A stretch of DNA of 59,592 bases. It comes from an uncultured bacterium. GTDB lineage: Bacteria; Patescibacteriota; Minisyncoccia; Moranbacterales; UBA2206. The stretch is taken from positions 1-59,592 of the forward strand of contig CAIZXS010000011.1 in NCBI GenBank assembly GCA_903937035.1. The letters run 5' to 3'. The notes beneath the pieces are model-generated. The model was given only the letters and a program-made list of their open reading frames with translations, had not been told where the DNA came from and ran no database searches. This document shows positions 1-59,592 of this stretch, piece by piece. Made by a program: the position numbers and the translations under genes. Each line of letters starts with the position of its first letter. Within the stretch, counting starts at the first letter, position 1.

Positions 1-71
1 TATTTTCTAGTCTTATCTGACATATCTGGGGTATTATTGATTACTGTTCCATTGCTTAGTAATAATTTCAT
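1..71 (-). CDS. Small cassette protein, N-terminal fragment (gene runs off the window)
   Basis: The gene reads leftward from an ATG at 71-69 and is cut by the window edge, so only 23 codons are visible. The peptide begins MKLLLSNGTVINNTPDMSDK. It matches the start of the 66-residue protein at 11109-11309 (MKMLLNNGKIISNAPDMSEE) and is identical to the fragment at 59522-59592. Function is unknown. No Shine-Dalgarno sequence is visible; the leader at 72-137 is A-rich and starts with a hairpin. The gene is divergent from the TrmB-type regulator at 331. That it is a real gene rests on the conserved protein start, conserved leader and good promoter at three loci. Confidence 0.72.
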   Translation of the reverse strand, partial: MKLLLSNGTVINNTPDMSDKTRK

Positions 72-96
72 AGTTTTTTTGCTTAATGATTAGTTT

Positions 97-137
97 GTTA
101 AGATATTGCTGGTCTTTTTTTGGTGATTTATCTTAAC
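97..137 (-). ncRNA. 5'-terminal leader hairpin of the small cassette gene (left copy)
   Basis: On the minus strand the predicted transcript starts at about 137 with GTTAAGATA (137-129), which pairs perfectly with TATCTTAAC (105-97) across a 23-nt A-rich loop. A further arm CATTAAGC (90-83) could compete for the CTTAA of the second strand. The same arrangement occurs at 11047 and 59456. Regulatory function is inferred. Confidence 0.55.
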
Positions 138-142
138 AGCGC

Positions 143-171
143 AGTATACAGCATTTTTAGCCAAACGTCAA
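143..171 (-). promoter_or_regulatory. Promoter of the left small cassette gene
   Basis: On the minus strand TTGACG (171-166), a 17-bp spacer and TATACT (148-143) lie directly upstream of the conserved leader hairpin. The predicted start point falls on the first bases of the hairpin. Confidence 0.75.
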
Positions 172-330: not shown

Positions 331-1110
331 ATGGAACATTTAATCGAGCCGCTAAAAAATCTGGGTTTGTCAGAAAAGGAAGTGCTGGTATATTTAGCGC
401 TCTTGCAAATTGGCTCAGCTACGCCTTATCAGATTGCTAAAAAATCGGGTATTAAAAGGCCGACCGCCTATGTTGTCGCGGAAGAGCTGGTTAAGAAGGG
501 TTTAATCATTCATATTCCTGGTGAAGAGAAAAAGCGATATATTGCTAAAAAACCCGATGCCTTTTTCGAGGAGCAGGAGGGAAAGTTGGCAGCGGCGCGG
601 AAGATTTTGCCAGAATTGCGATCATACCAGAAAAATATCGCCGAAAAACCGAGTATTTTGTATTTTGAAGGACTTGATGGTTTGCGTCAGGCACATGAAT
701 ATCGGCAGAAGGAGTTACATGGAAAGGAAACCGTAAGCTTTTTTGCTGCTAATGATGATGCTACTTCTGATGTAACGCAGTACTTGTTGCATTTTAATGA
801 ATATCGAGAAAAGCATAATATGTATGTGCGAGGTGTTACGGTGGATAATCCTAACTTGAAGCCTTATTCTAAGTTTATTGCTGAAGGAATCGGCACGATG
901 ACTACAAAATTTTTGCCACAAAAGATGTATAATTCCAAGATTTCTATTGAATCTTGTGATAATCAATTCGTACGCATCTTTTTGTTTGAAAGTGTGGAGA
1001 CATTGATCATTGAGTCGCCGAAATTTGCAACTGCCATCAAAGAAATTTTTGAGTTAGTTTGGAAGTCGATGGCAGGTAAATATGATAAACCAGAGACTTG
1101 GGTTGGGTAG
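331..1110 (+). CDS. TrmB-family transcriptional regulator 1
   Basis: Predicted cytoplasmic DNA-binding regulator of 259 residues. Residues 1-75 form a winged helix (L-S-E-K-E-V-x-V-Y-L-A-L-L, then Y-Q-I-A-K-K-S-G-I-K-R-P-T-A-Y as recognition region), followed by a linker helix to about 105. The effector part opens with K-P-S-I-L-Y-F-E-G-L, a signature shared with the regulators at 10129, 30236 and 58534, and ends in a hydrophobic I-F-E-L-V-W helix. Family knowledge: TrmB-like proteins sense small ligands, often sugars; the ligand here is unknown. It is divergent from the small cassette gene at 1-71, which it probably controls. An inverted repeat over its own -10 suggests autoregulation. The start follows a clear promoter by about 22 nt. 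Confidence 0.85.
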   Translation: MEHLIEPLKNLGLSEKEVLVYLALLQIGSATPYQIAKKSGIKRPTAYVVAEELVKKGLIIHIPGEEKKRYIAKKPDAFFEEQEGKLAAARKILPELRSYQKNIAEKPSILYFEGLDGLRQAHEYRQKELHGKETVSFFAANDDATSDVTQYLLHFNEYREKHNMYVRGVTVDNPNLKPYSKFIAEGIGTMTTKFLPQKMYNSKISIESCDNQFVRIFLFESVETLIIESPKFATAIKEIFELVWKSMAGKYDKPETWVG

Positions 1111-5506: not shown

Positions 5507-5673
5507 CCCCTTCGCCCTCCAGGAGAAGGTGGCCGAAGGTCGGATGAGGGAAGGGGCTTTTGAAATTTTTTTATTCTCTATGATATAGCGCTTATACTAA
5601 TTACCCTTGCCCTCACCTGTCCTTCGGACATCCCTGCCTACCGGCAGGCAGGCTCTCCCGAGGGGCGAGGAGG
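5507..5673 (-). repeat. Composite palindromic repeat, copy 1
   Basis: Two GC-rich blocks: 5507-5550 (with GGAGAAGGTGGCCGAAGGTC) and 5601-5673 (with the palindrome core CCTGCCTACCGGCAGGCAGG at 5633-5652). The reverse complement of the whole unit, block order included, recurs at 16035-16198. It occupies the gap between dxs and fhs and has no coding signature. Confidence 0.7.
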
Positions 5674-5746
5674 ATATATTGAGTTACCGAGCTAACTGCA
5701 GATTTTCTTTGTTCATAGTAATCAATAATTTTTTAAAAATAATATT

Positions 5747-7498: not shown

Positions 7499-8245
7499 TT
7501 ATTTCAAGTATTCCCAAAGCTTTTGAAAAATCATCTTTTGAGTTTCATGAATCATTTGATTTTCAATTAGCACGCCTACAGGATTGCCTTCCGAATCGCG
7601 AGAAATGAAAGCGCACTTTCCCGCGTAAATTAGGATGAATGTTGCAGAATTTTTGTTAGTACCTAGCCAGCGGCGGTCATCTAGCCCATGCAAGTTGCCC
7701 CCTTCAGCTAGGGAGATCGATTTCACGCGAATTTTTCTCTTAACTCTTTCTTTCGTGAATGTTGGATAGGCCTTGTAAATATCTGCGCTTGCTTCGGTAG
7801 AGGAATAGATATGGTATTCTCTTTCACCTTCTGGCAGGGAATGCATCGAAGAAAGTAAATCATCCAGGATTGTTTTTATTCCTGCGCGGTTATCATATAA
7901 TTTGGAGACTGGTCTTAGATCTTTTTTATCCTGAATTGATTTTAACTCTGGAATAATATCTAGGATACCATTTTTAACATCCTTAATTTCAAGCTCTCTG
8001 CTTTTGAGGATTTCTAATAATTTTTCAGGTTCTTCTGCGACGAAGCGCTGTTTTTTTTCTTGATAATAATAGCTAACAAGACCAATTTCTTGCAAACGCT
8101 TTAGAACATCATAGGTTGTTCCGCGGTTTAGCTCGGAGATCTCTGCTAGTCCGCGAACTGAGATTGCTCCATACTCGAGTAGTTTTAGGTATATCTTGAC
8201 TTCTTTATCATTAAGGCCAATTTTTCTTAAGATTGTTGTGTCCAT
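7499..8245 (-). CDS. TrmB-family transcriptional regulator 2
   Basis: A 248-residue regulator with an N-terminal winged helix (L-N-D-K-E-V-K-I-Y-L-K-L-L, then R-G-L-A-E-I-S-E-L-N-R-G-T-T-Y as recognition region) to about residue 70, a charged linker helix, and an effector domain with K-L-Y-D-N-R-A-G-I-K and a C-terminal I-F-Q-K-L-W helix. The inner motif differs from the K-P-x-x-x-Y-F-E-G of the other four copies, so it is the most divergent. Its promoter at 8642-8670 predicts a leader of nearly 400 nt that contains the CTTCT tandem repeat, unlike the short leaders of its paralogues. No small cassette gene is seen beside it; the divergent side holds an fhs remnant. Ligand and targets are unknown. 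Confidence 0.82.
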   Translation of the reverse strand: MDTTILRKIGLNDKEVKIYLKLLEYGAISVRGLAEISELNRGTTYDVLKRLQEIGLVSYYYQEKKQRFVAEEPEKLLEILKSRELEIKDVKNGILDIIPELKSIQDKKDLRPVSKLYDNRAGIKTILDDLLSSMHSLPEGEREYHIYSSTEASADIYKAYPTFTKERVKRKIRVKSISLAEGGNLHGLDDRRWLGTNKNSATFILIYAGKCAFISRDSEGNPVGVLIENQMIHETQKMIFQKLWEYLK

Positions 8246-8340
8246 ATTTATAAATAAATTGTTTGTAAAAAAGAAAACAGGAATAAATGCGATGATTTAT
8301 TCCAGGGTGTGAGAGAGAAAAAGCGAGCGAGAAAGTTAAG

Positions 8341-8415
8341 AGAAGAGAAGAGAAGAGAAGAGAAGAGAAGAGAAGAGAAGAGAAGAGAAGAGAAGAGAAG
8401 AGAAGAGAAGAGAAG
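8341..8415. repeat. Pentanucleotide tandem repeat (AGAAG) x 15
   Basis: Fifteen exact copies of AGAAG, with partial units on each side, embedded in a purine-rich stretch (about 8320-8505). It lies inside the predicted 5' leader of the TrmB-type regulator at 7499, where the RNA would read as CTTCT repeats. Such repeats change length by slippage. The surrounding open frames encode only low-complexity L-L-F-S-S peptides. Confidence 0.95.
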
Positions 8416-8641
8416 AGGTGAAGAATAAGGTGAGAAGGTGAAGGGGAAGAAAAGAAGATAGAAAAATGGAAAGGTGAGAAAAAAGAGAGAAAGGAAAGAA
8501 AATGAGAGGGGATATTGGTAAGGTTTTACCAATAAAGAAATGAATCGGGAGAAATAATATTTCGCCCATCCCAATCAAATTCTGTATAACTTCGGCCGCT
8601 CCTCGCTGGCTTATGATGTTTAAAATGTACTAATTAAGTCC

Positions 8642-10128: not shown

Positions 10129-10875
10129 CTAGCGCTTCTCAATTTCTGGTAGGTGGTCCCATAATGCTTCAAAGATAAGCTTCAATGTGTTATATATTTC
10201 TGAACTCTCGATAATGACTGCTAAATTTTCCTTGGCGGAGATGAGCGATATTTTTGAATGTCCATAGATGTCTATTTCTATGGAAAAAGGATATTTATTT
10301 TTATCAATCAATTTTGTCGAGCGCAGCTCTTTCTGATCGTTTTCGCGGAGTATCTCTCGGACATAGTTTGTTTTTGGTAGGATTGCCCGCACGCTGACGC
10401 CCTTTTTTACTCTCTTTTTGATGAAGGCATTCATCCATTCCTGTTCGACAATCTTGACAATATCTTCCGAGCCGAAGGCGTAGAATCCTCCTGAATATTT
10501 TAAGGTGTCCATATACACTTCTTTAATGCCTTCAACTCCTTCATAAAACCGGATCTTTGGCTTGACTCCGGAGATGTTATAGAGAGAGCGGAATTGTGGC
10601 AACGCTTCCAGGAAGACCGCCTCCTTCCTTTCTAGGTCTTTTTTTAACTTTTCTGGATCTTCAGCAATGAATAATCTTCTTTTTTCCTTCGTTGACTCAA
10701 AAATCAGGCCCTTAATTTTTAGATCCAAGAGGATGTCATAGCAGGTAGTTCGTTTGATGTTGGCTTTCTTGGCGATTTGGATGGTTGTTCCTGAGCCCAA
10801 TTCCAAGGCGGCCAGATAGACACTAGCCTCATGACTGGTTAGCCCGATCTGCTCCAAAATATCTTTTAATTCCAT
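10129..10875 (-). CDS. TrmB-family transcriptional regulator 3
   Basis: A 248-residue regulator. Winged helix at residues 1-75 (L-T-S-H-E-A-S-V-Y-L-A-A-L-E-L-G, recognition region I-Q-I-A-K-K-A-N-I-K-R-T-T-C-Y), linker helix, then K-P-K-I-R-F-Y-E-G-V-E-G-I-K-E-V-Y-M-D and a C-terminal T-L-K-L-I-F-E-A-L-W helix. It is divergent from the complete small-protein/receiver operon at 11109-12159, with both promoters in the 233-bp gap. This arrangement predicts control of that operon and of itself. The N-terminal half is close to the regulators at 30236 and 58534, suggesting duplication within the genome. Ligand unknown. Confidence 0.85.
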   Translation of the reverse strand: MELKDILEQIGLTSHEASVYLAALELGSGTTIQIAKKANIKRTTCYDILLDLKIKGLIFESTKEKRRLFIAEDPEKLKKDLERKEAVFLEALPQFRSLYNISGVKPKIRFYEGVEGIKEVYMDTLKYSGGFYAFGSEDIVKIVEQEWMNAFIKKRVKKGVSVRAILPKTNYVREILRENDQKELRSTKLIDKNKYPFSIEIDIYGHSKISLISAKENLAVIIESSEIYNTLKLIFEALWDHLPEIEKR

Positions 10876-10914
10876 ATATTTTAGTTTAACGACGACGAAA
10901 CCGTCATCTTTTGT

Positions 10915-10943
10915 ATTATATCAAAATAAGTAAAAACAGTCAA
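10915..10943 (-). promoter_or_regulatory. Promoter of TrmB-type regulator 3
   Basis: On the minus strand: TTGACT (10943-10938), 17-bp spacer, TATAAT (10920-10915). The predicted leader contains GACG...CGTC (10891-10905), a possible operator. Confidence 0.72.
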
Positions 10944-11012
10944 TATGTGCTTTATTAAAAGAGTATGGCGCATAAAACCAGCCTGGCCGCTTACAAATAT
11001 TGACGTTTGTTT

Positions 11013-11041
11013 TGACATCGTTACATTTTGGCAGTATAATG
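11013..11041 (+). promoter_or_regulatory. Promoter of the central small-protein operon
   Basis: TTGACA (11013-11018), 17-bp spacer, TATAAT (11036-11041): a full-consensus promoter. The predicted start is at 11047-11048, the first base of the leader hairpin. Confidence 0.85.
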
Positions 11042-11046
11042 GCTAG

Positions 11047-11108
11047 TTAAGATAAAAAATCTAAAAAACCGCCGAAATCTTAGCAACCTAACCATTAAGC
11101 CAAAATAT
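11047..11108 (+). ncRNA. Conserved 5' leader hairpin of the central small cassette gene
   Basis: GTTAAGAT (11047-11054) pairs with ATCTTAGC (11078-11085) using one G-U pair where the window-end copies have A-U. The intervening A-rich loop and the downstream CTAACCATTAAGC also match the window-end leaders, although the loop sequence differs. TTAAG of the third arm can alternatively pair with CTTA of the second. No Shine-Dalgarno sequence is present before the ATG at 11109. Confidence 0.6.
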
Positions 11109-11309
11109 ATGAAAATGTTACTAAACAATGGAAAAATTATTAGCAATGCTCCGGATATGTCTGAAGAAGTCCGAAAACAACTCAGTAGTCTCTGGCACTT
11201 TCCCTCCAAGGAAGAAGTGGAGAAGGAAAAAGAAAAATATTATATCTTTGATTACAAAAGAGAAATTCACCGCAGAACCGATCAAGTTGAAAGCATAATC
11301 GAACCGTAA
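11109..11309 (+). CDS. Small cassette protein, complete copy (66 residues)
   Basis: Not a family I recognise. The first 23 residues match those encoded at both window ends: M-K-x-L-L-x-N-G, two hydrophobic residues around an N, then P-D-M-S and R-K. The rest is highly charged (a K-E-E-V-E-K-E-K-E-K stretch, then Y-Y-I-F-D-Y-K-R-E-I-H-R-R) with no membrane segment or cysteine. A polar start with N-G and P-D-M-S turns followed by a charged helix suggests a small binding or adaptor protein; this is inference. It is the first gene of an operon with two receiver-like proteins and is divergent from TrmB-type regulator 3. The leader lacks an SD, in contrast with the two genes downstream. Confidence 0.75.
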   Translation: MKMLLNNGKIISNAPDMSEEVRKQLSSLWHFPSKEEVEKEKEKYYIFDYKREIHRRTDQVESIIEP

Positions 11310-11313
11310 ATTC

Positions 11314-11352
11314 TAGTGGGAGATAGAAAGAAGCTTTCCGTCTCTCCTAGAG
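11314..11352 (+). promoter_or_regulatory. Intercistronic stem-loop
   Basis: CTAGTGGGAGA and TCTCTCCTAG pair with one bulged T, with an inner AAAG/CTTT stem. It lies just after the stop of the small cassette gene, 90 nt before the next start, without a T run, so it is more likely an RNA-processing or stability element than a terminator. Confidence 0.4.
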
Positions 11353-11441
11353 TTTGTCTAAATCTAGATAACTCACAGTTTTTTAAAAAACAACAAAAAT
11401 GCTGCCTGTATCGGCGGGATAGAAATGGAGCAAGGAGGAAA

Positions 11442-11849
11442 ATGAAGATTATTCTTTTAATCGAAGACAAGAGTGAAGAAATGGAAAAAGCCAAAATGAT
11501 CCTGACAGAAGAAGGATTTCGTTTTGTTTCAGCTGATAATTTGGACGATGCTATGCGCATCTGGTCAAGGCTGGCAGATAGGATTAGTGGGGTATTAACC
11601 GACCTTCATTTTCCCGAAACAACAGGTCAGAAAGAAGGGGCTTGTGGCTTCGCTGTAGTTACCCGCGCGGTACGCTTGGGAATTCCCGTTTCCATTTGTA
11701 CCGATGTCAATCACCATTTCTGCGGATATATTAAATATTTTGTGGAAGATATGGGCAAGCTTACTGGTCGGAAGATTCCATACACGATGGACAGTAAGGA
11801 CTGGCGGCAGGCGGTTCAGAAACTAGTTGAACAATTCAAGGAGGATTGA
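11442..11849 (+). CDS. Receiver-domain-like protein A (135 residues)
   Basis: A stand-alone response-regulator receiver-like domain. The start M-K-I-I-L-L-I-E-D supplies the acidic pair E8-D9 and L-T-D-L-H-F-P places D54 at the usual phosphoacceptor position; V-S-I-C-T-D occupies the place of the conserved Thr/Ser strand. No output domain follows; the C-terminus is a helix of about 20 residues. The start at 11442 follows AAGGAGG by 5 nt. The gene is second in the small-protein operon. No histidine kinase is in the window, so phosphorylation is uncertain; it may be a pseudo-receiver that binds a partner. Confidence 0.68.
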   Translation: MKIILLIEDKSEEMEKAKMILTEEGFRFVSADNLDDAMRIWSRLADRISGVLTDLHFPETTGQKEGACGFAVVTRAVRLGIPVSICTDVNHHFCGYIKYFVEDMGKLTGRKIPYTMDSKDWRQAVQKLVEQFKED

Positions 11850-11850
11850 T

Positions 11851-12159
11851 ATGAAGAAATTGATGATCGTTAGCGGAGATATTTTAGGAGAAACACTGAA
11901 AGTGGTTTTGGCGATCCATTTCGATGAGGTGTTTCTCGTAGAAAGCAAAAGTGCGTTGGAGGCTTTTCTTCTTGAGGATCCGACTCATGTTCTTGTCTCA
12001 GATATGATTCGCTCTCCCAAGGATGCGCAAGTGGTAAGGGACCTGCAAGGGGCCAATGTCTCGAGTCTTATTCTTAGATATGGATTCGACAATAAGGTAG
12101 ATATTCAACTTCCATTTGAAAAAAATAAACTCATCGATATTCTGATGGGCAAAACTTAA
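11851..12159 (+). CDS. Receiver-like protein B (102 residues)
   Basis: The third gene of the operon, starting 2 nt after the previous stop with AAGGAGG embedded in the end of that gene, so the two are translationally coupled. The fold pattern resembles a short receiver: M-K-K-L-M-I-V-S-G-D at strand 1 and H-V-L-V-S-D-M-I-R-S at strand 3, with the aspartate at the phosphoacceptor place. The acidic pair at the end of strand 1 is reduced to G-D and the C-terminal helices are short. It is probably a diverged partner of protein A. Function is unknown. Confidence 0.6.
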   Translation: MKKLMIVSGDILGETLKVVLAIHFDEVFLVESKSALEAFLLEDPTHVLVSDMIRSPKDAQVVRDLQGANVSSLILRYGFDNKVDIQLPFEKNKLIDILMGKT

Positions 12160-16023: not shown

Positions 16024-16034
16024 CCTATGTATTC

Positions 16035-16198
16035 TCCTCTCCCTTTGGGAGAGCCTGCCTGCCGGTAGGCAGGGATGTCCCGTAGGACGGGTGAGGGTTC
16101 TTGTCTGTATAGGAAAAACTATCTGTTAAAATAAAGCTGGATGATATCACAAAGCGCCCTCATCCGGCCTCCGGCCACCTTCTTTCGAGGGGAGAAGC
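16035..16198 (+). repeat. Composite palindromic repeat, copy 2
   Basis: Block 1 (16035-16090) holds a CTCCCTTTGGGAG hairpin and the core CCTGCCTGCCGGTAGGCAGG at 16054-16073. Block 2 (16154-16198) holds CCGGCCTCCGGCCACCTTCT. Sequence and block order correspond to the reverse complement of 5507-5673. It ends about 80 bp before a tRNA-Leu gene. Confidence 0.7.
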
Positions 16199-18541: not shown

Positions 18542-18560
18542 CAAGATTGAAAAAAGAAAA

Positions 18561-18622
18561 GTCCGCCTTCGCGGACTACTAGCGGGCTTTGCCCGCCGTA
18601 GTCACGCTACGGCGTGACGAAG
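18561..18622. repeat. GC-rich double hairpin before tRNA-Gly(TCC)
   Basis: GTCCGCCTTCGCGGAC, then GCGGGCTTTGCCCGC, then GTCACGCTACGGCGTGAC form three hairpins running into the tRNA. A near-identical block lies at 53039-53101 before tRNA-Pro and a shorter one at 53224-53254 before tRNA-Gly(GCC). Confidence 0.7.
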
Positions 18623-18694
18623 GCGGGTGTCGTATAGTGGCTATTATATCAGCCTTCCAAGCTGAGGAGGGGGGTTCGATTCCCCCTACCCGCT
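18623..18694 (+). tRNA. tRNA-Gly (anticodon TCC)
   Basis: Acceptor GCGGGTG / TACCCGC with a terminal G-U, anticodon loop CTTCCAA, T arm GGGGG-TTCGATT-CCCCC, discriminator T. Confidence 0.95.
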
Positions 18695-18704
18695 CAGATA
18701 AAAT

Positions 18705-18740
18705 AGAAATCTCCCCAACAAGGAGGTTTTTATTTTGGTC
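18705..18740 (+). terminator. Terminator after tRNA-Gly(TCC)
   Basis: AAATCTCC / GGAGGTTTTT hairpin with a T-rich tail. Homologous to the hairpins at 53340 and 54145. Confidence 0.7.
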
Positions 18741-52930: not shown

Positions 52931-53038
52931 TTATGGCTGTTGACTTAAGCGCTATTTACGGATATGATTTATAAGTAATATTTGCGGTTGTTCTCTTTAG
53001 CGAGCTTGCTCGCCGAATCGGAGCTTCAATTTGGCGAA

Positions 53039-53101
53039 GTCCTCCTTCGCGGTCTATTTGCGGGCTTTGCCCGCCGTAGTCACGCTCTAGCGGGACGAAG
53101 G
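53039..53101. repeat. GC-rich hairpins before tRNA-Pro
   Basis: TCCTCCTTCGCGGTC, then GCGGGCTTTGCCCGC and GTAGTCACGCT. The stretch from GCGGGC to GTCACGCT repeats 18583-18608 exactly. The tRNA-Pro start lies at its right end. Confidence 0.7.
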
Positions 53102-53172
53102 CGGGGCGTTGTGTAATGGTAGCGCGCTTGGTTTGGGACCAAGTAGTCCGAGTTCGAGTCTCGGCGCCCCGA
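53102..53172 (+). tRNA. tRNA-Pro (anticodon TGG)
   Basis: Acceptor CGGGGCG / CGCCCCG, anticodon stem-loop CTTGG-TTTGGGA-CCAAG, T arm CCGAG-TTCGAGT-CTCGG, discriminator A, no CCA. Confidence 0.95.
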
Positions 53173-53223
53173 CATTTAGAATAGAATCGCAAGGCTATTT
53201 TTTTTAGCTTTTGTCTAATGCCT

Positions 53224-53254
53224 AGCGGGCTTGCCCGCCGAAGCTTTAGCGAAG
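53224..53254. repeat. GC-rich hairpin before tRNA-Gly(GCC)
   Basis: GCGGGCTTGCCCGCC and AAGCTTTAGCGAAGG form a shortened version of the pre-tRNA hairpins at 18561 and 53039. Confidence 0.65.
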
Positions 53255-53326
53255 GCGGGTATCGTATAGTGGCTAATATACGTCCTTGCCAAGGACGAGC
53301 GACGGGTTCGATTCCCGTTACCCGCT
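53255..53326 (+). tRNA. tRNA-Gly (anticodon GCC)
   Basis: Acceptor GCGGGTA / TACCCGC, anticodon stem-loop GTCCT-TGCCA-AGGAC, T arm ACGGG-TTCGATT-CCCGT, discriminator T. Confidence 0.95.
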
Positions 53327-53348
53327 CAGATATGATAAGAATCTCCCT
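53322..53348 (+). repeat. 27-bp direct repeat, left copy (tRNA-Gly end and terminator)
   Basis: Starts with CCGCTCAGATATGATAAGAA, the last tRNA bases and flank, and is exactly repeated at 54127-54153 after the PAS gene. It runs into a terminator (AATCTCC / GGAGATT, 53342-53365). Confidence 0.9.
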
Positions 53349-53386
53349 TAAAAAGGAGATTTTTGTTATTTATGCAAAGTTGAGAT

Positions 53387-58533: not shown

Positions 58534-59283
58534 TTATGCTAATTCTGGATTCAGCTTTTTTTCACTAATCTCCCACATTGTCTCAAAAAAACTCTTTTGC
58601 GTGTTATGGATCATCTGGCTTTCGATGATGATGGCGATTTCTTCTTCATAGGAAACCATGCCAATCTTGTTTCCGCCATAAATGACCATTTCAATTTCTA
58701 CTTTGAATTTTTCTGATTGAATGGTGCGGCTTTGGAAGAAATGTTTGTCTTCATCCTGGGCGATGGTGCGAAGTTCTTTACTGCTGGGAAAAAGGATTCT
58801 AGCCCAGATTTTCTTTTCTTTTCGCTTGGGGATGAAATAGCTCATGAAATAGTTGTCGAAATCGAAAAATTTTTCGTTTAAAGTCCCAAGCATCTCGCTT
58901 CCAGGGTATTTTAGGACATCCTTGAAAACCTCCCGATAGGCCTCACGGCCTTCAAAAAATTGGATTTTAGGCTTTTTATCAATTAGATTGGTGAAAGCCA
59001 AGAGCTCCGGCATAACTTTGTCGAGGGCTTTTTTCTTTTCTTCAAGCATTTCTGCCAGTTTTTTGGGGTTTTCGGCAAAACAAACAGCTATATTGTTGCT
59101 AGTGTAGCTGTTCATGAGACCTTTTTCTTTTAGTGTTTCCACGGCCAAATAGGTGGTTGTGCGCTTTACGAGCGACTTTTTGGCCAAACGATAGACGCTG
59201 GTTTCGCCCAATTCCAGGGCGGCCAGGTAGACCTTAGCCTCATTTTCGGAGAGTCCGGCGTTTTTAAGTTCGTCTAAATGCAT
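58534..59283 (-). CDS. TrmB-family transcriptional regulator 5
   Basis: A 249-residue regulator. The open frame runs to 59373, but the extra 30 residues are hydrophobic and cover the likely promoter; ATG 59283 gives the family start M-H-L-D-E-L-K-N-A-G-L-S-E-N. Winged helix to about 70 (recognition region Y-R-L-A-K-K-S-L-V-K-R-T-T-T-Y), then K-P-K-I-Q-F-F-E-G-R-E-A-Y-R-E-V-F-K-D and a C-terminal T-Q-K-S-F-F-E-T-M-W helix. Most like the regulator at 30236. It is divergent from the small cassette gene at 59522, with 238 bp between. Confidence 0.85.
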   Translation of the reverse strand: MHLDELKNAGLSENEAKVYLAALELGETSVYRLAKKSLVKRTTTYLAVETLKEKGLMNSYTSNNIAVCFAENPKKLAEMLEEKKKALDKVMPELLAFTNLIDKKPKIQFFEGREAYREVFKDVLKYPGSEMLGTLNEKFFDFDNYFMSYFIPKRKEKKIWARILFPSSKELRTIAQDEDKHFFQSRTIQSEKFKVEIEMVIYGGNKIGMVSYEEEIAIIIESQMIHNTQKSFFETMWEISEKKLNPELA

Positions 59284-59421: not shown

Positions 59422-59450
59422 TGGACTAGTTGCCAATTTTCTGATATACT
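59422..59450 (+). promoter_or_regulatory. Promoter of the right small cassette gene
   Basis: TGGACT (59422-59427), 17-bp spacer, TATACT (59445-59450). The -35 lies in a short inverted repeat AACTA-TGGAC-TAGTT, a possible operator. The -35 is weaker than that of the left copy, so the two copies may differ in strength. Confidence 0.65.
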
Positions 59451-59455
59451 ACGCT

Positions 59456-59496
59456 GTTAAGATAAATCACCAAAAAAAGACCAGCAATATCTTAAC
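59456..59496 (+). ncRNA. 5'-terminal leader hairpin of the small cassette gene (right copy)
   Basis: GTTAAGATA (59456-59464) pairs with TATCTTAAC (59488-59496). Same structure as at 97-137 and 11047-11085. Confidence 0.55.
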
Positions 59497-59521
59497 AAAC
59501 TAATCATTAAGCAAAAAAACT

Positions 59522-59592
59522 ATGAAATTATTACTAAGCAATGGAACAGTAATCAATAATACCCCAGATATGTCAGATAAGACTAGAAAATA
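59522..59592 (+). CDS. Small cassette protein, N-terminal fragment (gene runs off the window)
   Basis: ATG at 59522 followed by 22 further codons to the window edge, identical to the fragment at 1-71. See 11109-11309 for the complete relative. It is divergent from TrmB-type regulator 5. What lies downstream, including any receiver-like genes, is outside the window. Confidence 0.72.
   Translation, partial: MKLLLSNGTVINNTPDMSDKTRK

Follow-up and report, generated by a model that had tools for sequence, protein, structure and literature searches.

Results

Three TrmB-like regulator loci and their divergent units

The window analysed here, a stretch of 59,592 nucleotides, is the entire contig C11 of an uncultured bacterium of the order Moranbacterales (Patescibacteriota), whose genome assembly comprises 1.22 Mb in 26 contigs. 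The features at three loci of the window (left, central and right) are collected in Table 1. At each locus a gene for a TrmB-like regulator lies divergent to a small reading frame. These divergent pairs, the common start of the small frames (M-K-x-L-L-x-N-G..P-D-M-S..R-K) and the leader stem-loop, which the initial annotation had described as shared by the three loci, are found in 3/3 copies, but the left and right loci are not whole: the contig ends cut each of their small frames after 23 codons. A 148-nt inverted repeat is present between the two ends of C11 (1-148 vs 59445-59592), its outermost 141 nt being exact, and the first 141 nt of contigs C5 and C6 are exactly common to both. An assembly graph with k=141 is expected to leave such identical 141-nt overlaps where a repeat interrupts it. 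The missing parts of the end copies, 28 identical codons and the 3′ hairpin, form the starts of C5 and C6, which then carry different genes. The module of leader, small gene and hairpin is thus present in three copies, a diverged central one and two that flank C11 in inverted orientation. Since the middle of both end copies is absent from the assembly, we infer their full identity.

Table 1. Features of the central, left and right loci of the window.
Feature	Position	Strand	Evidence
TrmB-like regulator, central, 248 aa	10129..10875	-	Pfam PF01978 E 2e-12
TrmB-like regulator, left	331..1110	+	PF01978 E 1e-16
TrmB-like regulator, right	58534..59283	-	PF01978 E 3e-11
Predicted promoter of central TrmB gene, TTGACT-17-TATAAT	10915..10943	-	11/12 consensus
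Predicted promoter of central leader and small gene, TTGACA-17-TATAAT	11012..11040	+	12/12 consensus; covariance model match 11012-11088
Central leader stem-loop, GTTAAGAT (11046-11053) with ATCTTAGC (11077-11084)	11046..11084	+	covariation; stem common to leaders in other genomes
Small protein gene, 66 aa, without visible Shine-Dalgarno	11109..11309	+	paralogue comparison; third-position excess
Two consecutive hairpins past small-gene stop (11309-11354, 11355-11370)	11309..11370	+	fold z -4.1 and -4.6
Cargo 1, central: receiver-like, DD..D..TDxxHH..KDW family	11442..11849	+	Pfam Response_reg E 2e-4; PDB 3jte E 0.0045
Cargo 2, central: short degenerate receiver-like	11851..12159	+	20% alignment with cargo 1; no Pfam match
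Left leader/small-gene module	1..148	-	cut by contig end, 23 codons; inverted repeat with 59445-59592
Left promoter and leader stem-loop, stem 130-137 with 97-104	93..171	-	covariance model match
Right promoter (TGGACT-17-TATACT) and leader stem-loop, stem 59456-59463 with 59489-59496	59422..59500	+	covariance model match; fold z -2.5
Right small gene, first 23 codons	59522..59590	+	cut by contig end; continues at C5:1 or C6:1

All three regulators score 43-61 bits against the PF01978 winged helix, for which the curated cut-off is 25.6. The start of the right one was placed at 59283 and not at the TTG of a 279-aa frame. The central regulator is composed of a winged helix-turn-helix domain, a helical linker and a PLD-like C-terminal domain with a degenerate HKD motif (GHSKISLIS). 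Its AlphaFold2 model (pLDDT 81) has TrmBL2 (5bpi, E 1e-12) and TrmB (3qph) as best PDB matches. Foldseek E values against TrmB/TrmBL2 range from 1e-12 to 4e-10 with a whole-length TM of only 0.4, a value probably due to the orientation of the domains. The C-terminal part of the model is similar to phospholipase-D-like folds, and in an alignment of five window-encoded TrmB-type proteins, judged by eye, an intact HKD motif is absent at the matching place. The NCBIfam equivalog cut-offs for sugar-sensing TrmB/TrmBL1 are not reached (at most 29-30 bits vs 500-650), and a sugar ligand is therefore not to be assumed. The host species has six TrmB loci, three of which carry the small-gene module. At another TrmB gene of the window, 7499-8245 (-), a GAGAA pentanucleotide repeat of about 80 nt (8335-8418) lies directly upstream, where slipped-strand variation is possible; probable orthologues of this gene in two other genomes (G002, L130; G006, L138) have upstream regions that seem to be of low complexity and purine-rich.

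A 5′-terminal leader stem-loop recurs beside TrmB genes

A strong predicted promoter pair lies between the central genes, the two divergent promoters matching the consensus at nearly every position (Table 1). The leader stem is of 8 bp and begins 5 nt past the -10 box, at the predicted first transcribed nucleotide; in the end copies GTTAAGAT pairs with ATCTTAAC. A search with Rfam 15 at gathering scores of the window and of two further loci (L020, L021) yielded tRNAs only, with no match to the leader. No paper on TrmB in Patescibacteria, CPR or Parcubacteria was found in a literature search that reached few subscription papers, and which therefore shows little.

To describe the leader across the order, 74 TrmB genes from 25 genomes, host genome included, were surveyed. 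Divergent promoters of the same layout, with stems starting GTTAAGATGA, GTTACGATGA, GTCATGATGA and similar, are frequent among them. In seven seed leaders 96% of the stem pairs; sliding it lowers this to 41% or less. Two pairs have changed on both sides; this covariation is modest because the seeds are mostly GTTAAGAT. A covariance model of the promoter columns and the leader stem, seeded from TrmB loci, was then searched over 38 whole genomes and gave 20 matches at E<1e-4 with seeds and window copies left out. Twelve of these are directly divergent to a TrmB gene, and a 13th is set apart from one by an inserted transposase-like gene; three face an Lrp/AsnC-like regulator (about 340 aa) in divergent orientation, one falls on the promoter of a TrmB gene itself and three adjoin neither regulator type. 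By chance a TrmB start would be expected within 700 nt at well under 1% of sites, there being about 3 TrmB genes per Mb and about 3 per genome. The arrangement of regulator, leader and operon put forward in the initial annotation is thus real and recurrent, its matches in whole genomes mostly adjoining TrmB genes. A divergent leader match at E<=0.05 accompanies only about one in three of the 74 TrmB genes surveyed, and TrmB is not the sole partner, as the leader also occurs beside Lrp/AsnC-like regulators. Leaders divergent to these regulators were seen at L184, L187, L196 and L213. At L099 (G002:C52), the gene between the TrmB gene and its leader resembles REP-associated transposases.

The leader could be a mere feature of strong promoters, a 5′-terminal stem by which strongly expressed mRNAs of the order are stabilised in general, without a particular link to TrmB. 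Such a stem is a classical stabiliser of mRNA, and some of the matches do lie beside Lrp-like regulators or beside neither type. This explanation is nevertheless unlikely, since the good whole-genome matches concentrate beside a gene type with so few members per genome and so small a fraction of them lacks both regulators. In viral contigs, used as a negative control, the exact string TATAMT-N5-GTTAAGATGA occurred 27 times, always without the 3′ stem and without a good -35 box; a phage origin of the leader was rejected on these grounds.

A boxA-like motif follows the stem in many relatives, and an anti-Shine-Dalgarno-like motif in some

A boxA-like scoring matrix was built from the order's 16S leaders, which contain GAACTTTGACAA; the boxA of the host genome's own 16S leader is GAACTTTAACAA. 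With this matrix a boxA-like motif after the stem was found at p<=0.05 in 16/41 leaders (binomial 5e-11), and was not significant in the leader copies of the window (p 0.43-0.88). The heptamer TCACCTC, part of the order's 16S rRNA 3′ end GGATCACCTCC (anti-Shine-Dalgarno), is present in 7/39 leaders from four genomes vs 0.09 expected; the window copies have no significant motif of this type. It stands directly after the boxA-like motif in the leaders L091, L114, L137, L184, L185, L187 and L193. In E. coli rrn leaders a hairpin is likewise followed by boxA, to which NusB/NusE bind (PMC6614801). Given the same order of elements, a role of the leader in antitermination is plausible by analogy.

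The small frame evolves as a protein-coding gene within the host genome

Between the central and end small genes, 29/51 comparable residues are kept, while 98/153 bases (64%) are identical. The BLOSUM score of the paralogues was reached in 0/5000 neutral placements of the same substitutions, and the frame stays open in just 8% of neutral simulations. Similarity of a degree never reached in 5000 neutral trials marks the frame as a protein-coding gene under selection within the host genome; from the substitutions, purifying selection between the paralogues is clear. The cargo genes have visible Shine-Dalgarno sequences, unlike the small gene, the translation of which is accordingly deduced from selection alone. 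An AlphaFold2 model of the small protein is helical (mean pLDDT 70).

No homologue of the small protein was detected in 130 other genomes of the order, in 379 genomes of a phylum sample, in IMG/VR viral contigs or in phages, and its matches in 55 relatives were no better than noise. Pfam, PHROG and PADLOC gave no match and NCBIfam a sub-threshold match only. A weak match in G030 (L022) was examined and found to be due to chance. The initial annotation had staked its conserved small protein, as a partner of TrmB, on both homologues and purifying selection. Selection between the paralogues is present, but among the genomes searched homologues were found in the host genome only; as a widespread protein family, or a conserved protein of TrmB loci in general, the small protein was therefore rejected.

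The hairpins past the small-gene stop are also present at the starts of C5 and C6, where they fold like the central ones. The first has no U-tract and no intrinsic terminator was called. Two matches of the 3′ hairpin string in GTDB contigs were both due to chance, and a DNA similarity search of 34 family genomes found no part of the module. Sequestration of the cargo Shine-Dalgarno by a hairpin was rejected, as complementarity between the hairpin 3′ arm and the Shine-Dalgarno is not above shuffles (p 0.38-0.96).

Two other roles for the frame were weighed against these data. In a leader-peptide attenuator, translation of the 66 codons would alter the folding of the hairpins after the stop and so control the cargo. 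The frame does end directly before two hairpins, which are kept in 3/3 copies, and the cargo starts about 70-200 nt downstream. The missing U-tract and terminator call and the shuffle-level complementarity speak against such a device, as does the frame itself, in which no codon run is apparent and 66 codons under selection at the amino-acid level are long for a leader peptide; an attenuator is thus quite unlikely. Alternatively, the frame may not be a gene at all and form part of a structured RNA, in keeping with the lack of a Shine-Dalgarno and of homologues outside the host genome and with its conserved RNA-like flanks. That is highly improbable in view of the neutral simulations, for amino-acid similarity as for freedom from stops, and because the DNA of the frame is less conserved between copies (64%) than that of the leader (74%) and the 3′ part (79%).

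Receiver-like and other cargo genes

The start of cargo 1 is at 11442, after AAGGAGG, and not at 11316. In an alignment of 12 relatives the acidic pair, the acceptor Asp, the Thr/Ser and the Lys of receivers are present in cargo 1; its Response_reg score is 21.7 bits, under the curated cut-off of 30.2. Cargo 2 is without the acidic pair. Cargo genes are not peculiar to the central copy, to which the initial annotation had assigned two receiver-like proteins: the end copies also precede cargo, of other families (about 182-188 aa on C6; 136 and 107 aa on C5). The C6 family is scattered through relatives. Its member (L021:308-853) has a domain of LGLxLCPxExGP pattern, which recurs at L066-L073 in several relatives, often in longer proteins. 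A search of the cargo against defence and phage families was uninformative, with weak receiver-like or sub-threshold matches only.

Relatives of cargo 1 with the DD..D..TDxxHH..KDW motifs adjoin TrmB genes in at least five other genomes (G005, G010, G011, G034, G046), and one lies beside an Lrp-like regulator in G033. Degenerate receiver-like cargo adjoins TrmB in G012 and G038. The pairing of receiver-like genes with TrmB thus has a broader distribution than the small gene and is probably older. A zinc-ribbon-like CxxC..CxxC insertion before KDW was noted in the receiver-like cargo at L121, L134 and L190.

The end modules are identical, where both are seen, between different regulators and cargo

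The end copies are identical at every visible base from the predicted transcription start to beyond the first hairpin. Upstream of the identical block the left and right sequences are about 53% alike in global alignment, i.e. unrelated, and the promoters, regulators and cargo all differ between the two end copies. Silent positions between end and central copies are saturated (dS about 2, N-terminal part), so the identity of the end copies is not forced by sequence constraint. Identical modules between differing promoters, regulators and cargo suggest recent copying or homogenisation in which the cargo stayed different; the simplest reading would be that only the module was copied or underwent gene conversion. 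The proposal of a modular unit copied around the genome holds in that one leader/small-gene module precedes three different cargos. It does not extend beyond that module, as the end regulators have just 29-37% identity with the central regulator and the cargos bear no relation to one another. In appearance the unit is a regulated cassette whose cargo can be exchanged. That the identical modules are inverted repeats which let the 59.6-kb C11 flip, swapping cargo between TrmB-controlled promoters, would suit their inverted placing at both contig ends and the 141 nt with which C5 and C6 begin, yet an assembly breaks at any identical repeat, flipping or not, and we hold such a switch to be very improbable.

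Other repeats were observed in the window. A 54-nt inverted repeat (5626-5679 vs 16027-16080, 10 kb apart) is 91% complementary and contains CTGCCTACCGGCAGGCAGG, and repeated intergenic blocks around tRNA genes (18559-18731 and 53037-53363) are 75-88% identical.

Discussion

The reading to which we give moderate confidence is that of a two-promoter unit in which TrmB control is combined with a leader acting at the mRNA level on variable cargo, its module having been recently copied or homogenised. TrmB-family regulators are commonly transcribed beside the genes under their control. A TrmB-like protein with a PLD-like putative sensor domain would be transcribed one way, and the operon the other way, from a control region with two promoters. 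The operon would begin with the leader stem-loop at the predicted first nucleotide, followed by a boxA-like element in many relatives and last by variable, often receiver-like, cargo. The regulator may bind between the two promoters and set the initiation of both in response to a ligand or state. After initiation the leader would act, most likely by 5′-end protection and/or recruitment of Nus factors, and thereby let transcription extend into the cargo. At three of the six TrmB loci a presumably translated 66-codon gene and two hairpins separate the leader stem from the cargo, apparently as an insertion, and the small protein may act together with, or on, the cargo.

A wider reading can be entertained only tentatively and is rather doubtful: the leader would be a dedicated class of cis-regulatory RNA and, together with TrmB- and Lrp-like regulators, make up a modular order-wide regulon; the leader/small-gene module would pass between loci through gene conversion, allowing regulators and cargo to be recombined.

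The components are each of a known kind; neither Rfam nor the literature searched contained their combination. The leader, with its tie to TrmB- and Lrp-type regulators, is more general and of greater interest than the genome-private small protein. Regulation in small-genome bacteria such as this one is poorly known. A leader that a model can find, and which predicts a neighbouring TrmB- or Lrp-type regulator, offers a handle on a regulon of mostly unnamed proteins, and also on the family of receiver-like proteins tied to it.

Each component can be set against a known system. With TrmB, TrmBL1 and TrmBL2 (PF01978) the regulators share the TrmB-type winged helix, and the overall fold is closest to archaeal TrmBL2 and TrmB. 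They differ in their size of about 250 aa, the PLD-like C-terminal domain with its degenerate HKD and their below-equivalog scores. Like stand-alone CheY-like receivers, the cargo-1 family has the acidic pair, a phospho-acceptor-like Asp and a Lys at the expected places; it differs in the extra TDxxHH and KDW motifs, in the zinc-ribbon insertion of some members and in the sub-cut-off Pfam score.

In rrn-type antitermination leaders (boxB hairpin, boxA, boxC; NusB/NusE) a hairpin comes before boxA, as in E. coli (PMC6614801); in the leader set the stem is followed by a boxA-like motif at p<=0.05 in 16/41 members, and this enriched motif is similar to the boxA of the order's 16S leaders. The TrmB-linked leader differs in that it precedes protein operons, its stem starts from the first nucleotide and the motif is not significant in the window. 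With 5′-terminal stabilising stem-loops of the ompA-like kind it shares the position of the stem at the mRNA 5′ end; it is set apart from them by its TrmB and Lrp neighbourhoods, its large A-rich loop and the common start GTTAAGATGA.
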